A stretch of DNA of 64,000 nucleotides from Balneola sp. EhC07. GTDB lineage: Bacteria > Bacteroidota > Rhodothermia > Balneolales > Balneolaceae. Location: contig NZ_LXYG01000017.1 in NCBI RefSeq assembly GCF_001650905.1, positions 186,001 to 250,000 of the forward strand, written 5' to 3'. The position numbers and the translations under genes are program-made. Of the stretch, positions 10,947-46,202 are shown one piece after another (positions within the stretch are counted from its first letter, which is position 1; each line of letters opens with the position of its first letter). A model generated the notes under the pieces. The model did no database searches, was not told the origin of the DNA, and saw only the letters and a list, made by a program, of their open reading frames with translations.

Positions 10947-13754
10947 ATGTCCACAAAAGAAACGGCTACTGTTGAAGCAAAAGAGGAAGCGCTGGAACGA
11001 CCAATTATAATAAAAGGCGCGAGGACTCATAATCTCAAGAATATAGATGTAGAAATTCCGAGGAATAAGCTCACGGTGATAACAGGGGTATCGGGTTCAG
11101 GGAAATCGAGCCTGGCCTTTGATACAATTTATGCGGAAGGTCAGCGACGTTACGTGGAAAGTCTTTCCAGCTACGCCAGACAGTTTCTGGAAAGAATGGA
11201 TAAGCCGGATGTCGATTTTATGCAGGGTATTTCTCCGGCAATGGCCATTCAGCAAAAAACCACTTCGAGCAATCCGCGTTCAACTGTTGGAACAACAACC
11301 GAGATCTATGATTATTTAAGACTGCTGTTTGCCCGAATTGGAAAAACAATTTCTCCGGTATCCGGTAATCAGGTCAAAAAAGACACTCCGAAAACCGTTA
11401 TTGAAGAGGTCCTTAAGCTGATGGAAGAAGGAGACCGGTTTTACGTTCTTTATCCGATTCCTCAGCACGAAAAAAAGAAACTGGACGAAGAGCTGAAGGT
11501 TTTAAAGGAAAAAGGTTTTAGCAGGCTTCTGAATATCAATGACGAAAGCATAATAGACCTGACCGATGGCGACATAGACACAAAAAAGATCAAAAGAAAA
11601 GAGTTCAGGGTTCTTGTGGATCGCTTGATCCTTAAAGATGATGAAGCAACCATCACAAGGATAGCCGGATCGCTGGAAACAGCTTTTCAAAACGGAAGCG
11701 GAAGGTTATCCATCAAAAAAAGAAATGGAGATGAATTTCCATTCAGCGAACGATTTGAGTTGGATGGAATTGAGTTTACAGAGCCAACTCCGCAAATGTT
11801 CTCGTTCAACAACCCGTTTGGAGCTTGCCCTAAATGTGAAGGTTTCGGAAAAGTATCAGGCATAGATGAAGATCTTGTGATCCCGGATCATGAAAAGACG
11901 ATCCGAAACGGAGCCATCGCACCGTTTACAACTCAGAAGTTTAGTACCCATCTCAGAGATCTGATAAAGGTAGCGTCGGAAGAAAAGTTTTCAATTGATA
12001 CTCCTTATTCAGAGTTGCCGAAAGAGGTGAAGAGTATAATTTGGAAAGGAAAAGGAAACTATATCGGAATCTGGAACTTTTTCGATACAGTGAAAGATCA
12101 GGCGTATAAAGTCCATATGCGTGTGTTGTATTCCCGTTATCGTGGATATAGTCGATGTCCGGAATGTGAGGGGTATCGGGTAAGAAAAGATGCACAGTAC
12201 GTGAAAGTTGGTGGGATGCATTCCGGAGAAGTGTCTGAGTTAACCATTGGTTATGCCAAAGACTATTTTGAAGGACTTGAACTAACAGAATTTGAGCAAG
12301 GAGTAGCAGGACAGATCCTATACGAGATCAGAAAAAGATTGAAATACCTGGATGAAGTTGGGTTGGATTATCTCACACTGGATCGACTTGCAAATACTTT
12401 GAGTGGCGGTGAGTCGCAAAGAATAAGTTTGGCGAATGCTTTGGGCAGTTCGTTGATCGGCAGTATGTACGTCTTGGATGAACCAACAATAGGTTTGCAC
12501 CCCAGAGATAACGACCGGTTGATCAAAATTCTGGAATCCCTGAGAGATATTGGAAACACAGTTCTGGTTGTGGAACATGATCCGGAAATGATGAAGGCAG
12601 CTGATAATGTAATCGATATCGGACCTTTTGCAGGAGTTCATGGTGGAGAAGTAGTATTTGAAGGCAACTTTGAAAATCTTCTTAAATCGGATACGCTTAC
12701 CGGAAAATTTCTGAGCGGTAGAAAGCAGATCGAAGTTCCGAAAAAGCGCAGAAAAGGAAATGGGAGATCTATAAAGGTTGAAGGAGCCAGCGAGCATAAT
12801 CTCAAAAATGTAGACGTAGAATTTCCTTTAGGAAAGATGGTAGTAGTAACCGGCGTTTCAGGATCAGGGAAGTCTACATTAGTGCACGATACGGTTTATG
12901 CCGGCATCCAAAAACATATTGGTTCTTATAACCAGAAAGTGGGTCGGTTTAAAGATCTTTCGGGAATGGCAAGCGTTCACAATTTAGAAATGGTGGACCA
13001 AAGTCCGATCGGTCGTTCTTCCAGATCAAATCCGGCAACCTATACCAAAGCGTTTGATGGAATTCGGGATGTGTTTTCGAATACTCGTCAGGCAAAAATA
13101 ATGGGCTACACTCCGGGGCATTTCTCATTTAACGTGCCGGGCGGGAGATGCGAAAACTGTCAGGGCGAAGGGATTCAGAAAATAGAGATGCAGTTTATGG
13201 CTGATATCGAACTAGTTTGCGAAGTTTGTAACGGCGCTCGTTTCCGAAAGGATGTATTAGCTGTAAAATACCGGGGTAAGAGTATTCATGACGTACTTGA
13301 AATGCCGATCTCTGAAGCTATCGAATTTTTTGTGGATGAAACCACGATCATAAATAAATTACAGCCGTTAGAAGATGTTGGATTAGGGTATTTAAACCTG
13401 GGACAAAGCGCGACAACTCTTTCGGGTGGAGAAGCTCAGCGTGTGAAATTGGCCAGATTCCTAACCAAACAAAGTTCCGAACACACCATTTACTTTTTTG
13501 ATGAACCTACGACAGGATTGCACTTTGAAGATGTAGCAAAACTTTTGGAAGCATTTAACGAATTGGTTAATTCAGGTCATTCTGTAATAATCATTGAGCA
13601 CAATCTGGATATAATAAAATGTGCTGACTGGATCATTGACGTTGGCCCGGAAGGCGGTTTTGCAGGCGGTCAAATTGTAGCAGAAGGTACACCTGAAGAC
13701 ATTACAAAAGTGAAAGAGAGCTATACAGGGCAATATTTGAAGGAATATTTGTAG
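10947..13754 (+). CDS. uvrA: Excinuclease ABC subunit A
   Basis: UvrA scans DNA for lesions with UvrB in nucleotide-excision repair. The ATG at 10947 gives 935 residues, close to the usual 940; an in-frame ATG at 10863 would add 28 non-conserved residues. Two ABC modules are clear. Walker A GVSGSGKS occurs near residues 47 and 635, and signature LSGGESQRI / LSGGEAQRV near 485 and 824. The second zinc module (CENC near 734, CEVC near 757) is complete. In the first, only one CxxC (CPKC near 293) remains before FNNPFG-type text; the earlier pair is replaced by [13 protein letters not shown] recall this as typical of Bacteroidota UvrA. No partner gene adjoins it. Confidence 0.97.
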
Positions 13755-19770: not shown

Positions 19771-19819
19771 TAAGACATAAGACCTAAGATGTATGATTTG
19801 AGACATAAGATTTAAGAAT
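19771..19819 (+). repeat. Seven-unit heptad array, consensus TAAGANN
   Basis: Seven consecutive 7-bp units fit TAAGANN with few changes (TAAGACA, TAAGACC, TAAGATG, TATGATT, TGAGACA, TAAGATT, TAAGAAT). The array ends exactly at the base before the ATG at 19820. Two more units appear after that gene at 20289, and a relative lies at 37099-37154. Confidence 0.85.
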
Positions 19820-32073: not shown

Positions 32074-32143
32074 TAGATGTGAGTATTTAGTAGTTAGTAT
32101 TGTACGCGGAAGCTCAATACTAACTACTAAAATCTGTGTACTA
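32074..32143. repeat. Inverted pair of four-unit heptad arrays
   Basis: Four 7-bp units of consensus TAGTANT (32074-32101) begin at the base after the metalloprotease stop. Four units of the complementary consensus ANTACTA (32116-32143) end four bases before the aat ATG. The 14-base spacer GTACGCGGAAGCTC is GC-richer. The inner 17 bp of each arm (32086-32102, 32115-32131) are perfectly complementary. Confidence 0.88.
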
Positions 32144-34006: not shown

Positions 34007-34684
34007 TTAATTTCCATAACTAACAGTTTGTATTATTTCGCCTAATACCTGTTCGTTTTCTCGAAAACGTGTAAAAGTGTTTTCTTTAAGATCTTCTAAG
34101 CCGGAGCTGATAAGTTGTAAATCGTTTGTTCTTTGGCTTTCCAGATAGGAAGCAAAACTTGCAAAAGTTTCTTCCAATTGAATGTTCTGTTGTTCCTGAG
34201 CATCTGCTACTACTTGCTGAACCAAAGTCACATTATCACGCTGAATTTGCTGAACAATTTGTTCAACCTGAGCAGCGGAGAAAGTTTTTTCAGCAGAGGG
34301 AGTTTCTCCAAAACCCAACTGAATTCCGGAATCAGAGTAACTCATATTCAAACCTGTTAAAGCCCCAGTTACGATGAAAACAAAAGCTAAAACGGCTACA
34401 CCAAAACCAGCCTGAGCAAAAGCATTTCTAGGGGTTAAAGCGGAAAGTATACTTTGCCAAAATCCTTCAGAAGAAGCCTTTGTCGGCTCCATAATAACCA
34501 GCTGTTCAGCGGGGTCCTGCACCGGAAGATGGTGGAGAAAAGACTGAGTTTCAGTGAGTTCTTCAAATTCTTGTTTCAGATCGTCATGTTGGTTGATGAA
34601 ATCCAGAAGCTCAGACTTCTTTGCCTCATCCAATTCGCCATACATGTAATCCATTAAGAGTAATCGTGCTTGTTCTTTATTCAT
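34007..34684 (-). CDS. Anti-sigma factor-like membrane protein
   Basis: The 225-residue protein has an N-terminal helical domain of the anti-sigma type (YMYGELDEAKKSELLDFINQ) lacking the HxxxCxxC zinc motif. One membrane helix lies at about residues 92-115 (FGVAVLAFVFIVTGALTGL), followed by a periplasmic coiled-coil-like tail rich in Gln and Glu. Its start overlaps the sigma-factor stop by eight bases. It should hold the ECF sigma factor at the membrane. Confidence 0.85.
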   Translation of the reverse strand: MNKEQARLLLMDYMYGELDEAKKSELLDFINQHDDLKQEFEELTETQSFLHHLPVQDPAEQLVIMEPTKASSEGFWQSILSALTPRNAFAQAGFGVAVLAFVFIVTGALTGLNMSYSDSGIQLGFGETPSAEKTFSAAQVEQIVQQIQRDNVTLVQQVVADAQEQQNIQLEETFASFASYLESQRTNDLQLISSGLEDLKENTFTRFRENEQVLGEIIQTVSYGN

Positions 34685-35246
34685 AATTGAACACCTCTTT
34701 ATTGATATTCCAGGAATCGAACGTTTTTTTCAGCGCCCGTAATCCATAATACATTCTTGACTTTACTGTGTTGATCGGTTCATCTAAAATTTCTGCAATC
34801 TCCGGGAAAGTTAATCCTTCATATTCTTTCATTATTACCACTACGCGCTGGTCGTTAGGTAACTGAAGGAGTGCTTTATGAAGGAGAACCAGCCCTTCAT
34901 TTCGCAATACTTTTGAATCTGCTGATGAAGCAGTTTCCGTTTGAGGAGCCACTTTTAGTGTTTCATAAGAAGTAGCTCTTTTTCTGCCAACTCTCTTTAA
35001 TTCATCTAGGCAAAGGTTGTTTGCTATTCGATATAACCAGGAACTGAATTTATTTACGTCATCTAAAGTGTCCAGCTTTTGGTACGCTTTGATGAACGTT
35101 TTCTGAGTGATCTCAGCGGCGTCGTCACTGCTGGCGAAGTAGCGATAAGCAAAGTGATGAATCTTACCTTGCCACCGACTAACCAGCGTATTGAACGCCT
35201 GATGATTTCCTCCCAGAAAATCCTGAACTAATCGTGCATCTTCCAT
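34677..35246 (-). CDS. ECF-type RNA polymerase sigma factor
   Basis: The 189-residue protein has sigma region 2 (HHFAYRYFASSDDAAEITQKTF, SSWLYRIANNLCLDELKR) and region 4 (LPNDQRVVVIMKEYEGLTFPEIAEILDEPINTVKSRMYYG) and no region 3, as in extracytoplasmic-function sigma factors. It directs RNA polymerase to a stress regulon, usually including its own operon. It is followed by its anti-sigma factor and an exported effector. A CCCGAA/TTCGGG hairpin lies 25 bases upstream (35272-35289). Confidence 0.94.
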   Translation of the reverse strand: MEDARLVQDFLGGNHQAFNTLVSRWQGKIHHFAYRYFASSDDAAEITQKTFIKAYQKLDTLDDVNKFSSWLYRIANNLCLDELKRVGRKRATSYETLKVAPQTETASSADSKVLRNEGLVLLHKALLQLPNDQRVVVIMKEYEGLTFPEIAEILDEPINTVKSRMYYGLRALKKTFDSWNINKEVFNYE

Positions 35247-35345: not shown

Positions 35346-35373
35346 GTGAAAGGTGAAAGGTGAAAGGTGAAAA
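35346..35373 (+). repeat. Four-unit heptad array, GTGAAAG
   Basis: Three perfect GTGAAAG units and one GTGAAAA stand side by side upstream of the four-helix-bundle gene. The complementary array lies at 35830-35857. Confidence 0.9.
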
Positions 35374-35423
35374 AGAAATTTTGTAAGGAATAGAGGTCGA
35401 AATGGTCTTACCTATTAAAAATT

Positions 35424-35825
35424 ATGGATTACAAGAGTTGGATTCGTCAGATTGACGAAAACTTTACTAAAGACCCAAGCTGGAAAATGGAGGTTTATAG
35501 AATAAGCCTTTATTTATCTGATCTATGCTGGGTTGACACATCATTAATTCTTGAAAAGAGGATTTTCTCACTAGCAGATCAATTATATAGATCTGTTGGG
35601 TCTATTAGTGCAAATATAATTGAAGGCTATTCCAGATTTTCTAACAAAGAAAAAGCCAGGTTTTATGAAATTGCTCTTGGTTCAGCACGAGAAGCTAAGG
35701 ATTGGTATTTCAAAAGTAGGCACATTTTAGGTGAAGAAGTTTATCAGAATCGCATCAGAATTTTGACATCAATTATAAAATTACTGAACGTAATGATAGT
35801 AGATCGAAGAAAAGTAGCAAAATGA
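35424..35825 (+). CDS. Four-helix-bundle protein (S23/bAvd-like)
   Basis: The 133-residue protein shows the conserved core of the four-helix-bundle/23S rRNA intervening-sequence family: LADQLYRSVGSISANIIEGYSRFSNKEKARFYEIALGSAREA. Relatives include the accessory Avd proteins of diversity-generating retroelements, which form pentamers and bind nucleic acid, but there is no reverse transcriptase here. The gene lies between GTGAAAG heptad arrays in opposite orientations and its stop codon touches the right one, so it may be a small mobile cassette. Confidence 0.9.
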   Translation: MDYKSWIRQIDENFTKDPSWKMEVYRISLYLSDLCWVDTSLILEKRIFSLADQLYRSVGSISANIIEGYSRFSNKEKARFYEIALGSAREAKDWYFKSRHILGEEVYQNRIRILTSIIKLLNVMIVDRRKVAK

Positions 35826-35829
35826 TTTC

Positions 35830-35857
35830 CTTTCTCCTTTCAGTTATCTCCTATCAC
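35830..35857 (-). repeat. Four-unit heptad array, inverted partner
   Basis: The + strand units CTTTCTC, CTTTCAG, TTATCTC and CTATCAC are degenerate complements of GTGAAAG. The array begins five bases after the four-helix-bundle stop and supplies the dinB stop codon (35840-35842) and its last six codons. Confidence 0.8.
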
Positions 35858-36952
35858 CAAGCCCCTCCTAAACTCTAACTCCAATTGTTCATAATAATGA
35901 TCTTCAGAAAGATTCAGGTTTGATAGAGAAATTCCGAGTAGGCGAACCTGGCGATTTCCGACATCCGTATCTTCCAGAAGTTGACGTGCAACGGTAGATA
36001 TTTGATAATGGTCGTTAGTGTAATTAGGTACAGATTGGCTTCGGGTGATGGTATCGAAATTTTTGTAACGAACTTTTAGTGTGATGGTTTTCCCCTTTGC
36101 GTTGATCTTCTGCATTCCTTCAGAAATAGACTCCGATAACTCATCCAGAAAAGTGGTGATCCAGTTCAGGTCTCCTTTGTCGTCGGAGAAAGTGCGCTCC
36201 TTCCCATAAGACTTTCGAATTCGATGTGGTTTTACTTCTCTGTTATCGATGCCTCGGCAAATTCGATAATAGTACCTACCTGATTTTCCGAATGCTTTAA
36301 CCAGATCGATCTCGCTCCATTCTTTGAGATCAGCTCCGGTTTTGATGCCAAGCGAATGCATTTTCTTTTGAGTGGCTTTTCCAACTCCAAAGAACTTCTT
36401 GATGTCTAAACCTTCCAGAAATTCCTCTGCTTCTTCGGGAGGGATAAGAGTAAGTCCGTTTGGCTTGTTGTAATCAGAAGCAACTTTAGCAATGAACTTG
36501 CAATATGAAACACCTGCCGATGCAGTAAGCTGAGTTTTCTCTTGGATCTTTTCCAGAATTTCTTTGGCAATAAGCGTGGCTGACCTCATTCCCTTATGAT
36601 TTTCAGTAACATCCAGGAAAGCCTCATCCAGAGAAAGTGGTTCAACCAGATCTGTGTATTCAAAAAAGATCTCACGAATTTGTTGAGAGGCTAATTTGTA
36701 AGCATCGAATCTTCCTTTAACAAAAATCCCATGGGGACAAAGTCGTGCAGCCTGTGAACAAGGCATAGCTGAATGTACCCCAAACTTTCGGGCTTCATAA
36801 CTGGCTGTTGAAACTACACCGCGACCATTAGGAGAACCTCCAACAATAACCGCCTTGCCACGAAGAGCTGGATTATCCCTTTGCTCCACAGCAGCAAAAA
36901 AAGCATCCATGTCTATATGGATAATCTTGCGAATATGTTCCCGATGTATCAT
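35840..36952 (-). CDS. dinB: DNA polymerase IV
   Basis: The 370-residue Y-family polymerase has the catalytic acids in HIDMDAFFAAVE (about 11-22) and SLDEAFLDVTE (about 103-113), a helix-hairpin-helix in the thumb (FFGVGKATQKKMHSLGI) and a little-finger domain. It copies damaged DNA or extends mispaired ends. The C-terminus is short and lacks the usual QL(S/D)LF clamp motif; it ends in LVIGDN, all from the heptad repeat, with LELEF just before as a possible clamp motif. A palindrome over the promoter suggests damage control. It is convergent with the four-helix-bundle gene. Confidence 0.96.
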   Translation of the reverse strand: MIHREHIRKIIHIDMDAFFAAVEQRDNPALRGKAVIVGGSPNGRGVVSTASYEARKFGVHSAMPCSQAARLCPHGIFVKGRFDAYKLASQQIREIFFEYTDLVEPLSLDEAFLDVTENHKGMRSATLIAKEILEKIQEKTQLTASAGVSYCKFIAKVASDYNKPNGLTLIPPEEAEEFLEGLDIKKFFGVGKATQKKMHSLGIKTGADLKEWSEIDLVKAFGKSGRYYYRICRGIDNREVKPHRIRKSYGKERTFSDDKGDLNWITTFLDELSESISEGMQKINAKGKTITLKVRYKNFDTITRSQSVPNYTNDHYQISTVARQLLEDTDVGNRQVRLLGISLSNLNLSEDHYYEQLELEFRRGLVIGDN

Positions 36953-36968: not shown

Positions 36969-37017
36969 ATAAATTGATTCAGAAGGAACTCTACAATGAT
37001 GCCGTTTTATAAAAAAA

Positions 37018-37059
37018 CCAACCCGTAGGGACAATTCATGAATTGTCCCTACGGGTTGG
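37018..37059 (-). terminator. 42-bp perfect palindrome used as terminator
   Basis: Two 21-bp arms (37018-37038 and 37039-37059) are perfectly complementary without a loop, with CCAACCCGTAGGGAC at the base and AATTCATGAATT at the tip. On the minus strand a T run follows (37011-37017). It lies downstream of the M19 peptidase. The internal part resembles a palindrome I recall from many bacterial genomes, so it may have come in as a repeat element. Confidence 0.8.
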
Positions 37060-37072
37060 TGAAATAAAAAAG

Positions 37073-37098: not shown

Positions 37099-37154
37099 AG
37101 TCTTTAATCTTAAGTCTTACGTCCTAAATCTTATATCCTAAATCTAAAATCTAA
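37099..37154 (-). repeat. Eight-unit heptad array (AATCTTA on + strand)
   Basis: Eight successive 7-bp units (AGTCTTT, AATCTTA, AGTCTTA, CGTCCTA, AATCTTA, TATCCTA, AATCTAA, AATCTAA) fill 37099-37154. On the minus strand they read TAAGANT, the same family as 19771-19819. The last unit contains the stop codon of the M19 peptidase (37151-37153). Confidence 0.85.
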
Positions 37155-40134: not shown

Positions 40135-41541
40135 ATGTCGCACTATAAGTTCTACGAGCAGGTAAATAAAAATTTTGATAAAGCGGCGAGATATACCCGC
40201 TTCGATAAAGGCCTTCTAAACCAGATTAAAGTTTGTAATACAGTTTACCACGTTACTTTTCCGGTTCGGAGAGATAACGGAGATATTGAAGTAATAGAAG
40301 GATGGCGAGTGGAGCACAGCCATCATAAAACACCTACTAAAGGTGGTATCAGATACAGCCATAAAGTGGATGAAGACGAAACAATGGCACTTGCAGCACT
40401 AATGAGCTACAAGTGTGCGATCGTTGATGTGCCTTTTGGTGGTGCAAAAGGTGGTGTTAAGATCAGTACCAGAGAATACTCTGTTAGTGAGCTCGAAAGA
40501 ATCACTCGTCGTTATACATACGAGTTGATCAAAAAAGGATTTATTGGCGCAGGTGTTGATGTTCCTGCACCGGATTACGGAACAGGCGCTCGTGAAATGG
40601 GCTGGATTCTCGATACCTACCGCCAAATGAATGAAGATCTGAATGCTGAAGGTTGTGTAACCGGAAAGCCAATTCAGCAAGGTGGTATCAGAGGAAGAAC
40701 GGAAGCTACAGGACGTGGAGTTTTCTTTGGAATCCGTGAAGCGTGCAAAGTGAAAAAAGACATGGACAAACTTGGATTAAGCGTTGGTGTAGATGGAAAG
40801 ACGTTTGTGGTTCAGGGATTAGGTAATGTAGGTTACCACGCTTCTTTGTATATGACCGGAGCCGGCGCAAAAATGATCGGAGTCGCTGAAATGGAGGGAG
40901 CCATTTATGATCCTAATGGAATGGATCTGAAAAAATTGATGGAATTCCGAAAAGAGACGGGAAGTATTATCGGGTTTCCGGGCAGTAAAGAATTGAAATC
41001 AAATAAAGATGCTCTTGAGTTGGATTGTGATGTGTTGATCCCCGCAGCTCTTGAAAGTCAGATAACCGGTGATAATGCTGCGAATGTAAAAGCTAAGATC
41101 ATTGCTGAGGCAGCCAACGGACCTACTACTGCTGATGCACATGAAATGCTGAAAGATCGAGGAGCTTTAATTCTGCCGGATGCTTATTTGAATGCAGGTG
41201 GTGTAGTTGTTTCATATTTCGAGTGGTTGAAAAATATTCAGCACGTTCGTTACGGTAGAATGAACAAACGTTTTGACGAAGAAAGTCTGACCAGAATTGT
41301 TCAGGAGATCGAGAAAATTTCAGGCAAGAAATTCTCTGCCAATGAAATGGAGAAACTGGCTCACGGTGCATCCGAGTATGATCTTGTGGATTCCGGATTG
41401 GAAGAAACTATGATTACTGCCTACGCAGAGCTTACCGCACTTAGAGAAGAGCACGATCTTACTGATCTGAGAACAGCTTCGTTTATAAGCGCGATCAATA
41501 AGATCGGAATCATGTACGAACAAATGGGAATCTTCCCGTGA
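40135..41541 (+). CDS. gdhA: Glutamate dehydrogenase
   Basis: The 468-residue protein has the Glu/Leu/Phe/Val dehydrogenase signature VDVPFGGAKGGVKI (about 98-111) with catalytic Lys, and an early R-x-D-x-G-x-x-K-G-G-I-R text. The Rossmann fold contains VVQGLGNVGYHA. It interconverts glutamate and 2-oxoglutarate plus ammonia with NAD(P). In this frame the enzyme is a hexamer-type (~50 kDa). Its stop codon is directly followed by a heptad array that runs to the putP start. Confidence 0.95.
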   Translation: MSHYKFYEQVNKNFDKAARYTRFDKGLLNQIKVCNTVYHVTFPVRRDNGDIEVIEGWRVEHSHHKTPTKGGIRYSHKVDEDETMALAALMSYKCAIVDVPFGGAKGGVKISTREYSVSELERITRRYTYELIKKGFIGAGVDVPAPDYGTGAREMGWILDTYRQMNEDLNAEGCVTGKPIQQGGIRGRTEATGRGVFFGIREACKVKKDMDKLGLSVGVDGKTFVVQGLGNVGYHASLYMTGAGAKMIGVAEMEGAIYDPNGMDLKKLMEFRKETGSIIGFPGSKELKSNKDALELDCDVLIPAALESQITGDNAANVKAKIIAEAANGPTTADAHEMLKDRGALILPDAYLNAGGVVVSYFEWLKNIQHVRYGRMNKRFDEESLTRIVQEIEKISGKKFSANEMEKLAHGASEYDLVDSGLEETMITAYAELTALREEHDLTDLRTASFISAINKIGIMYEQMGIFP

Positions 41542-41608
41542 TTGGTTATTAGTTAATGGTTAACTGTTATGCGCCTCTTTCAACAAATAACAAATAACCA
41601 TTAACCTT
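41542..41608. repeat. Inverted pair of four-unit heptad arrays between gdhA and putP
   Basis: Four 7-bp units NNNGTTA (TTGGTTA, TTAGTTA, ATGGTTA, ACTGTTA; 41542-41569) start at the base after the gdhA stop. Four units of the complement TAACNNN type (CAACAAA, TAACAAA, TAACCAT, TAACCTT; 41581-41608) end at the base before the putP ATG. An 11-base spacer TGCGCCTCTTT parts them. The whole intergenic gap is therefore repeat and spacer. Confidence 0.92.
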
Positions 41609-43060
41609 ATGACAGAGTCTCAGGTTTTTGAATTAGCTGTTGACAGGTACGCTGTTTATGCTTTTATCGGATATCTTGCTCTATTAATCGGCATCGGACT
41701 TTATTCAGCTCGCTTTTCCTCTTCGGGGATCAGCGAGTTTTTTATTGGTGGAAGAAAAATGAATAAAGTGGTGATCGCTCTTTCCGCAGTTGTTTCCGGA
41801 AGAAGTGCCTGGCTGTTGTTGGGAGTAACCGGTCTGGTTTATGTTCAGGGCGCTTCAGCAATTTGGGCAGTAGTTGGTTATATCGTTGTGGAGCTCATTC
41901 TATTTCTTACTTATGCCAAAAAATTAAGGGAGTTTTCGGAAGAACATGATTGTATCACAGTTCCTGATTTCTTTGCAGAACGCTTTGGTGATAAGACCGG
42001 AACATTAAGATCTATTCTTATAATTACTTTTCTGATCTTTATGGTGAGCTATGTTTCCGCGCAGTTTGTAGCCGGAGGAAAAGCTTTTTCATCCAGTTTT
42101 GGGATCGAACAAAATACCGGAGTTTTACTTTCTGCAATTATCATACTGGCTTACACAGTTCTGGGAGGATTTCTGGCGGTTAGTTTAACGGATGCTTTTC
42201 AGGCGTTTTTTATGATCTTTGCATTGGTATTTCTTCCTTTTATAGCCATTCAGGATTTAGGCGGATGGTCTGTTATGATCGAGCAACTCGAATTTCAGGA
42301 CGCTGCGCTGATCGATCCGTTGGCACTGAGTGCTGGAGCTTTTATCGGTTTTATGGGGATTGGTTTAGGTTCGCCGGGTAATCCTCACATTCTATCCAGA
42401 TACATGGCCATTGATGATGCTAAGAATTTACGATTTGCTGCGGGGATTGGAACCTTCTGGAATATTGTGATGGCAGCAGGAGCGGTATTAATAGGCTTGG
42501 TAGGAAGAGCATATTTCTCAAGCATTGAAATGCTTCCCGGCGCTGATTCTGAAAACTTATATCCGTATTTAGCACAACTTCATTTACATCCTGTTCTATT
42601 TGGGATTGTGATTGCGTCCATTTTTGCAGCGATCATGTCAACAGCAGATTCGCAGTTGTTAGTTGCCGCGTCCAGTGTGGTTCGGGATTGGTATCAAAAG
42701 ATCTTAAAGAGAGACGAAGAAATTTCCCAAAAGAAATTGGTGCTGTACAGTAGGTTAGTTGTCGTTGCACTTGTGGTAGTAGCACTTCTTTTTGGGTTAG
42801 TTGCTCAGGAATTGGTGTACTGGCTGGTACTTTTTGCCTGGGCAGGATTGGGAGCTGCTCTCGGACCAACTTCAATTCTGGCACTTTACTGGAAGGGAAC
42901 CACCAAAGAAGGAGTAATTTCAGGAATTATTACCGGAACACTGGTAACCATTGTCTGGTACTTTATCCCTGTTCTGAAAAGCAGTATGTATGAACTGGTT
43001 CCGGCCTTTATTGCAAGTGGATTGGTAACAGTTTTGGTGAGTAAGTGGACTAAAGAATAA
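41609..43060 (+). CDS. putP: Sodium/proline symporter (SSS family)
   Basis: The 483-residue protein has 13 likely helices and SSS features: GGRKMNKVVIALSAVVSGRSAWLLLG, IVVELILFLTYAKKLREFSE, FGSPGNP-type GIGLGSPGNPHILSRYMA, and SIFAAIMSTADSQLLVAAS. The pattern matches PutP rather than glucose or acetate carriers. It imports proline with Na+, feeding glutamate metabolism beside gdhA. It lacks a visible Shine-Dalgarno site because the heptad array runs up to its ATG. Confidence 0.93.
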   Translation: MTESQVFELAVDRYAVYAFIGYLALLIGIGLYSARFSSSGISEFFIGGRKMNKVVIALSAVVSGRSAWLLLGVTGLVYVQGASAIWAVVGYIVVELILFLTYAKKLREFSEEHDCITVPDFFAERFGDKTGTLRSILIITFLIFMVSYVSAQFVAGGKAFSSSFGIEQNTGVLLSAIIILAYTVLGGFLAVSLTDAFQAFFMIFALVFLPFIAIQDLGGWSVMIEQLEFQDAALIDPLALSAGAFIGFMGIGLGSPGNPHILSRYMAIDDAKNLRFAAGIGTFWNIVMAAGAVLIGLVGRAYFSSIEMLPGADSENLYPYLAQLHLHPVLFGIVIASIFAAIMSTADSQLLVAASSVVRDWYQKILKRDEEISQKKLVLYSRLVVVALVVVALLFGLVAQELVYWLVLFAWAGLGAALGPTSILALYWKGTTKEGVISGIITGTLVTIVWYFIPVLKSSMYELVPAFIASGLVTVLVSKWTKE

Positions 43061-45328: not shown

Positions 45329-45420
45329 ATTCCATCTTACGGATTTCCCGTCTGATGGAATATTGAGTTAGCTAATTAAGCTAGTTCTTTCGGTCAGACA
45401 GGTAATCTGTCAGACCGAAA
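45329..45420. repeat. REP doublet, copy 2, abutting the transposase stop
   Basis: Hairpin A is at 45329-45361 (two mismatched positions) and hairpin B at 45388-45420 (CGGTCAGACAG..CTGTCAGACCG, one mismatch). B ends at the base next to the transposase stop codon. The linker GTTAGCTAATTAAGCTAG is nearly identical in copy 3. Confidence 0.9.
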
Positions 45421-46023
45421 TTAAAAATCTACTAAAAATTCATCAGAAATTGTCTGCTTGCAGAAGGCTCTAAACTCTTTATGGTCAATAGGAAGTTTAA
45501 ATAAATCTCTGGCTAATTCCTGATTACATAGCTTTCCTTTTCGAAACCCTGCATAATCCTGATACGAAGAAAACTCCCAGTCTTCTAGTTTAGTAACCAG
45601 TTTGGCTCTAATAGGATTTTGATGGATGTACAAGAAACAATTGACTCCATAATCATTATGAGTTTTTGATTCTTGAGCCAGTGATTTTGCCTTAGCTCTA
45701 GCACGGAATAAAGATCCCGATCGATTCAATTTTTTGTTGACCGCTTGCGTATAAGAACTTTGAAGAATCCCGATACTCCTGTTTAGGGTGCCAACTTTAT
45801 TCGATTCTTGAATGTTATCTGAAGAATCGTATTCGGATTTTACTTGAAATAAAAAATGATAATGATTCGGCATTAAACACCATGCCAATATGTCAACGTG
45901 TGGAACAAGGTGTTTTTCAACTTTCTTTAAAAGATACAGATAATTTTCTCGTTCAAAGAAAAGAGGTTCTCTGTTATTTCCTTGATTATAAACATGATAG
46001 GTATGCTCTGGAAGAAATTGCAT
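45421..46023 (-). CDS. REP-associated tyrosine transposase (RAYT, Y1/HUH type)
   Basis: The 200-residue protein has the HUH motif in MPNHYHFLFQ (His54, His56) and a YIHQNP stretch (Tyr132). By comparison with E. coli TnpA-REP this should hold the catalytic tyrosine. There is also SYTQAVNKKLNRSGSLFRARAKAK and WEFSSYQDY. RAYTs cut single-stranded REP hairpins and are believed to spread REP sequences. The protein looks intact. It is flanked by direct copies 2 and 3 of an A-linker-B REP doublet, with a third 0.7 kb away. This gives the expected 'REPtron' arrangement. Confidence 0.92.
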   Translation of the reverse strand: MQFLPEHTYHVYNQGNNREPLFFERENYLYLLKKVEKHLVPHVDILAWCLMPNHYHFLFQVKSEYDSSDNIQESNKVGTLNRSIGILQSSYTQAVNKKLNRSGSLFRARAKAKSLAQESKTHNDYGVNCFLYIHQNPIRAKLVTKLEDWEFSSYQDYAGFRKGKLCNQELARDLFKLPIDHKEFRAFCKQTISDEFLVDF

Positions 46024-46074
46024 CTGTCATTATAATAAAAATGGGATTTAAACTATAAACATATACCGTATTAC

Positions 46075-46202
46075 GGTCAGACGGACTTAAGCCGTCAGAC
46101 CTCCAAGCTTCCATTCCATCTGACGGATCACCCGTCTGATGGAATACTGAGTTAGCGAATCAAGCTAGTTCTTTCGGTCAGACAGGTAATCTGTCCGACC
46201 GA
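46075..46202. repeat. REP hairpin plus doublet, copy 3
   Basis: An extra hairpin (GGTCAGACGG at 46075-46084, CCGTCAGACC at 46092-46101) is followed by hairpin A at 46113-46145 and hairpin B at 46174-46202. B ends four bases before the TRIC stop codon. Confidence 0.9.

Follow-up and report, generated by a model that had tools for sequence, protein, structure and literature searches.

A hairpin of inverted heptad arrays between gdhA and putP of Balneola sp. EhC07, probably a gene-less relative of S23 hairpin elements

The gap between gdhA and putP

How does a gap between two protein genes come to consist of short repeated units, a spacer and nothing else? The question is raised by the window analyzed here, a stretch of 64,000 nucleotides of Balneola sp. 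EhC07 DNA, at positions 41542-41608. In agreement with an earlier note on this DNA, the 67-base gap starts right after the stop codon of gdhA (glutamate dehydrogenase family; 40135-41541, plus strand, with the TGA ending at 41541) and ends before the ATG (41609) of a putP-type sodium/proline symporter of the SSS family (41609-43060, plus strand). On the plus strand, a left (5′) array of four 7-bp units, TTGGTTA TTAGTTA ATGGTTA ACTGTTA (41542-41569), abuts the gdhA stop codon, and is followed by an 11-base spacer or loop, TGCGCCTCTTT (41570-41580), and by a right (3′) array, CAACAAA TAACAAA TAACCAT TAACCTT (41581-41608), that is inverted relative to the left one and abuts the putP ATG. The note had described four NNNGTTA units, an 11-base spacer and four TAACNNN units with no base left over; the layout holds, except that the first right-hand unit carries CAAC, TAAC being confined to the remaining three. 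Identity at lag 7 is 0.76 in the left array and 0.81 in the right array, and none of 5000 dinucleotide shuffles of the gap equaled either array or the inverted match, bearing out the view that the arrangement is not due to chance. The gap is made of inverted arms around a loop, each arm being a tandem of about four 7-bp units.

Folding of the transcript, a check proposed in the note, gave a predicted hairpin of 11 bp plus 6 bp with a 2x2 internal loop (41552-41605, plus strand), the gap RNA folding at -16.7 kcal/mol (z -4.5). The hairpin is also predicted in five sister species, whose alleles fold at z -4.4 to -7.0. No Rfam match was found anywhere in the window.

Comparison with sister species, likewise proposed, showed that the gaps are homologous and that the arrays are retained between gdhA and putP in five of seven same-genus genomes, one of these (G005) having a degenerate hairpin. 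The left array has 3 units in G001, G004 and G007, vs. 4 in G002 and the window, so that species differ by exactly one 7-bp heptad. The two further sisters are without arrays: the gap is 12 bp long in G003 and holds a G+C-rich, terminator-like hairpin in G006. The hairpin is present or absent as one unit between orthologous genes. Its loop differs between species and is more variable than the arms. No compensatory changes were seen in the stem among six species, whose divergence is too small; conservation of the structure by covariation is therefore not demonstrated.

S23 genes and their periodic arms

The genome-wide 7-bp check suggested in the note came out positive. Local segment scoring over 864 kb of the Balneola sp. 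EhC07 genome detected 25 lag-7 segments vs. about 2 expected; in bulk autocorrelation the excess is too diluted and leaves only a weak lag-7 bump. Other lags gave 0-2 segments each, except lag 14 (18 segments, an echo of 7) and lag 15 (5 segments). Hairpins with arms dominated by period 7 number 11, vs. at most 3 for any other lag, and their themes vary (TTAGTAC, AATTAAG, AGTGTTA, GTTATTG, CAATGAT). Hairpins that share the GTTA...TAAC theme of the gdhA-putP gap stand at about six separate places in the genome, and G002 and G004 have more of them. The window contains a second gene-less hairpin, TTTAGTAGTTAGTATTG-12-CAATACTAACTACTAAA (32086-32131, plus strand), with arms identical in four species and a loop replaced in one; its theme is shared with the arms of one of the S23 elements described below (L005). 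Two unpaired, degenerate heptad arrays of theme TAAGAYN are also present, one at 37101-37150 (minus strand), retained in sisters with length changes, and one at 19771-19817 (plus strand), common to sister G007. A dispersed intergenic family of near-perfect palindromes was noted as well, its members having CATG (or TGCA) as the loop and GTAGGG as the core (window 37017-37060; L062 16276; L049 1940; L055 6763).

Twelve genes in the genome belong to the S23 / four-helix-bundle family (TIGR02436, PF05635), one of them inside the window. All 12 have 7- or 8-bp periodic flanks, both periods being found within this one genome. At most of these genes the sequence upstream returns in inverted form downstream, and each locus has its own theme (inverted arm scores of 9-27, median 17.5; mismatched pairs averaged 9.2). 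When 694 sampled ORFs were ranked by their flanks, the three S23 genes among them all fell within the top 7. The gene-bearing relative in the window (35424-35825, plus strand; PF05635 is named 23S_rRNA_IVP) has a 5′ arm of GTGAAAG x3.9 (35346-35372, plus strand), with fewer units in sister G004, and a 3′ arm, TTTCCTTTCTCCTTTCAGTTATCTCCTATCACC (35824-35860, plus strand), which is an imperfect inverse of the 5′ arm with a score of 17.

Several S23 genes are preceded by a TTTTGTAAGGAAT-N15-17-TGTCTTAC-like sequence (window 35378-35411, L006, L010, L011, L014, L128, L129, L131) that resembles an ECF-sigma promoter (GGAA...GTCT); the copy at 35378-35411 adjoins an ECF sigma factor gene (34677-35246). 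Several S23 genes of the genus have an in-frame stop, and apparently one TGA-bearing copy is common to four species. At another element (L013; L152 about 11900-11975, G000 contig C8), the 3′ arm now encodes extra N-terminal residues of the following gene product, which begins METDNQNQETSSELKVQSYIQGKW, vs. MKVTSYIQGKW in G001, where the element is absent.

The association extends well beyond Balneola. Of 148 genomes sampled from the phylum, 114 have S23 genes, as do 47 of the 58 from the taxonomic family. A scan of species genomes with a tighter S23 profile, that of all 12 paralogues being too divergent, returned 80 S23 loci from many phyla. Strong inverted arms (score of at least 16), with period 7 or 8, were found at 45 of 79 loci. 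Non-S23 genes in the same loci had much weaker flank scores, and 4 of the 8 'controls' with the best scores proved to be S23 genes themselves; across sampled S23 loci the inverted arm score was 16.9, vs. 9.1 in the comparison. Among 124 S23 loci from many phyla, the period was 7 in 65, 8 in 45 and unclear in 14, lags other than 7 and 8 being seen at 8 loci at most. The 5′ and 3′ arms had the same period at 73 loci and different periods at 1. The modal number of units is four per arm. When phased on AG, a period-7 unit reads approximately AGTNRTN and a period-8 unit approximately AGTNNCTA, and it is the 5′ arm that carries the A-G side. STRR-like arrays are also found on both sides of S23 genes carried by plasmids, cyanobacterial and other, with a clear or moderate period of 7 or 8 in 13 of 14 cases and a weak one in the last.

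The period follows the protein. When the period (7 or 8) is mapped onto a tree of 110 S23 proteins, 8 changes are required, vs. 34.9 with shuffled labels (0 of 500 shuffles as low), with the proviso that the tree rests on few columns, includes some long branches, and is compared with label shuffles that ignore close copies. Protein pairs that are 55-70% identical share their period in 91% of cases, while more distant pairs are at about chance level; among nearest neighbors from different phyla, 37 of 49 have the same period. We take this tracking of the tree by the period as the strongest sign that the protein may act on its own arms. The PDB crystal entries of the S23 relatives 2gsc and 2rld contain five chains apiece, which makes it plausible that an S23 ring reads several tandem units.

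Origin of the gdhA-putP hairpin

The gdhA-putP element has no S23 ORF, only the 11-base spacer between its arms, and we accordingly call it a gene-less relative rather than a full element. Several observations connect it to S23. In sister G004 (L154 7700-8190), an S23 gene is enclosed by GTTAATAGTTATTGGTTAT ... AACCAATAACAATTAACC, the GTTA theme of the gap, and this element begins at the stop codon of the upstream gene, as the gdhA-putP gap does. The arms of five S23 elements (L004, L005, L012, L014, L015) recur without the gene in repeats or hairpins. One site (L008) is a bare stop-to-start junction in G003 and G005 and holds arm, S23 gene and arm in other species; another (L012) is occupied by different S23 genes in different species. 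Whole arm-to-arm elements are thus gained or lost in one piece in stop-to-start gaps, and this accounts for the exact fit of the gap to both gene borders. The note had emphasized this exact phase; it is indeed not a chance outcome, but no phasing mechanism is needed to produce it. At an intergenic site (L164 11734-12162, compared with L160, L161, L162 and L167), the S23 gene found in G000 and G001 differs from the one in G002, G003, G004 and G007, the outer left arm being common to both occupants.

Other observations count against the tie to S23. On a profile of the S23 unit (AG every 7 nt), the gdhA-putP gap scores 7.8 bits, about 3.4 sd above its shuffles and below their 99.9th percentile (10.6), and ranks 35th of 424 intergenic regions, a moderate score attributable to units that start with GG, AG or TG, rather than AG throughout. 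No single site was found with the same arms around an S23 gene in one species and without the gene in another, so that the derivation of a solo form from a full one is not directly seen. The comparison by S23 content covered the S23-free G102 and G041 (both with a G+C content of 0.63) and G003, which has 11 S23 genes, although 400 kb sampled from it showed no lag-7 arrays.

Taken together, the S23 / four-helix-bundle family is the most likely parent of the hairpin, and the gap is probably an S23 hairpin element in gene-less ('solo') form, a connection that the earlier note had not made. A full element has inverted arms of 7- or 8-bp units on either side of an S23 gene and, as the sister species show, is gained or missing in one piece at a short stop-to-start gap. 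In the scheme that we propose, the solo form would retain the two arms and a short loop without the gene. Some intervening sequences of 23S rRNA likewise have no S23 ORF. The arms would be transcribed along with gdhA and putP and pair into a stem; lying between the coding regions, this stem would be tolerated and, by analogy with intervening sequences, may be cut by RNase III. S23 may recognize the tandem units by contacts of AG type spaced 7 or 8 nt apart, acting on arms both in cis and in trans, while the number of units would drift through 7-bp slippage. Both the movement of the elements and the binding of S23 to the repeats are inferred.

It is unlikely, in our estimation, that the hairpin is instead a host regulatory device that tunes the stability or translation of the gdhA and putP messages, its heptads arising incidentally through slippage and being unconnected with S23. 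Such a role would fit its strong fold, its position directly 5′ of the putP ATG and its retention in five sister species. However, hairpins of the same theme lie at many unrelated sites in the genus, the theme encloses an S23 gene in G004, and the gdhA-putP hairpin is missing from two sisters and shows no compensatory changes.

The arrays could also be a neutral heptanucleotide microsatellite, in which polymerase slippage makes the 7-bp arrays and template switching during replication makes the inverted partner. This explanation, already weakened, has a low probability: it predicts neither S23-flanking arrays across phyla nor a period of 7 or 8 that follows the S23 protein tree, even though species do differ by exactly 7 bp and long near-perfect 7-bp arrays exist elsewhere in the genome. 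Heptamers are also the commonest long simple repeats in most surveyed genomes, according to work by Mrazek as cited in PMC4679880.

We consider very improbable a REP/BIME-type palindrome mobilized by a RAYT (Y1_Tnp) transposase. Like the S23 hairpins, REP/BIME are short intergenic hairpins that outnumber a small-protein gene family of the same genome, and the Balneola genome has Y1_Tnp genes. One of these, a diverged RAYT-like gene in the window (45421-46023, minus strand), lies between REP-like palindromes, TCTGACGGATCACCCGTCTGATGG / TTCGGTCAGACAGGTAATCTGTC (45335-46198). These palindromes, however, are G+C-richer, of another sequence and not 7-periodic, and go with another protein family, whereas heptad arms accompany S23 genes. 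The gdhA-putP gap was not placed among REP/BIME, as the RAYT-side palindromes are not heptad-based. An intrinsic terminator of gdhA is hardly credible either, despite the terminator-like hairpin at the same place in G006, since the gdhA-putP stem is A+T-rich rather than G+C-rich, no T-run follows it, and the terminator scan found none inside the gap, its only match being a weak one at the gdhA end.

Related repeats and wider reading

The solo-element reading places the gap beside several known systems. The intervening sequences of 23S rRNA, as in Coxiella, carry an S23-family ORF inside stem-forming terminal inverted repeats and are described as selfish elements excised by RNase III (PMC4990558). 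The present elements share with them the S23-family ORF within inverted repeats that form a stem, but lie between protein genes and have arms of tandem 7- or 8-bp units, and the gdhA-putP gap has no ORF. It is not a classical intervening sequence, lying between gdhA and putP and not in a 23S rRNA helix.

PF05635 is described as resembling Avd of diversity-generating retroelements (PMC10053308), and the Avd model gave a weak match to S23 proteins. Unlike in those retroelements, no reverse transcriptase (RVT_1, PF00078) was found in the present genome, and copying in cis driven by such an enzyme was discarded as an origin of the gap.

Cyanobacterial heptanucleotide STRRs, to which the note had likened the gap, are intergenic tandem heptamers known from isolated direct arrays. 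The likeness has substance: S23 genes on cyanobacterial plasmids (L338, L339, L343, L345-L347) lie between STRR-like arrays, whose units we take to be those published. The gap itself is not assigned to the cyanobacterial STRRs; it has heptads, but its host is Balneola. TAACTGA heptamers of Beggiatoaceae, Cyanobacteria and Bacteroidetes are intergenic 7-bp direct repeats near start codons (PMC4679880); their reverse complement, in the AGTTATC phase, fits the period-7 S23 unit AGTNRTN, although they are mainly direct repeats of one exact unit, with one inverted case. The GGGAATC heptads of Xanthomonas are also intergenic and occur as convergent (inverted) pairs in 70-75 cases (PMC4692102), but their unit is G-rich and is discussed in terms of quadruplexes. 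With these pairs, and with inverted flanks being the normal layout around S23 genes, the inverted geometry that the note had held to be distinctive loses that status. A text search found no mention of S23 in either PMC4679880 or PMC4692102, nor did we find any report joining S23 genes to heptad arrays in the open-access literature searched.

Intergenic repeats of heptanucleotides are on record for several groups of bacteria and, to our knowledge, have no accepted origin; the S23/IVP protein is a common small protein of Bacteroidota and Cyanobacteria for which we know of no established function beyond its relation to Avd. The tie between S23 genes and arrays, with a period that follows the protein tree, gives each of them a concrete partner, and both can be tested. 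S23 elements may explain the long-puzzling heptamer repeats of many bacteria. We would give about even chances to a broader proposal, in which many intergenic heptamer and octamer arrays (cyanobacterial STRRs, TAACTGA arrays, the gdhA-putP gap and perhaps the GGGAATC pairs of Xanthomonas) would be the arms of S23-encoded hairpin elements that form a single ancient class spread across phyla, a ring-shaped S23 reading a unit length of 7 or 8 set by its lineage.

A '23S rRNA IVP' is listed among CRISPR-associated proteins in a figure legend of PMC10910872, for which S23 elements with arrays that sit inside cas operons offer a simple reason. Such elements occur on cyanobacterial plasmids (L337, L344, L347), in the orders cas6-S23-cas4 and cas10-S23-cmr3. 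Another plasmid-borne cyanobacterial S23 element (L338) sits between nrdB and nrdA.
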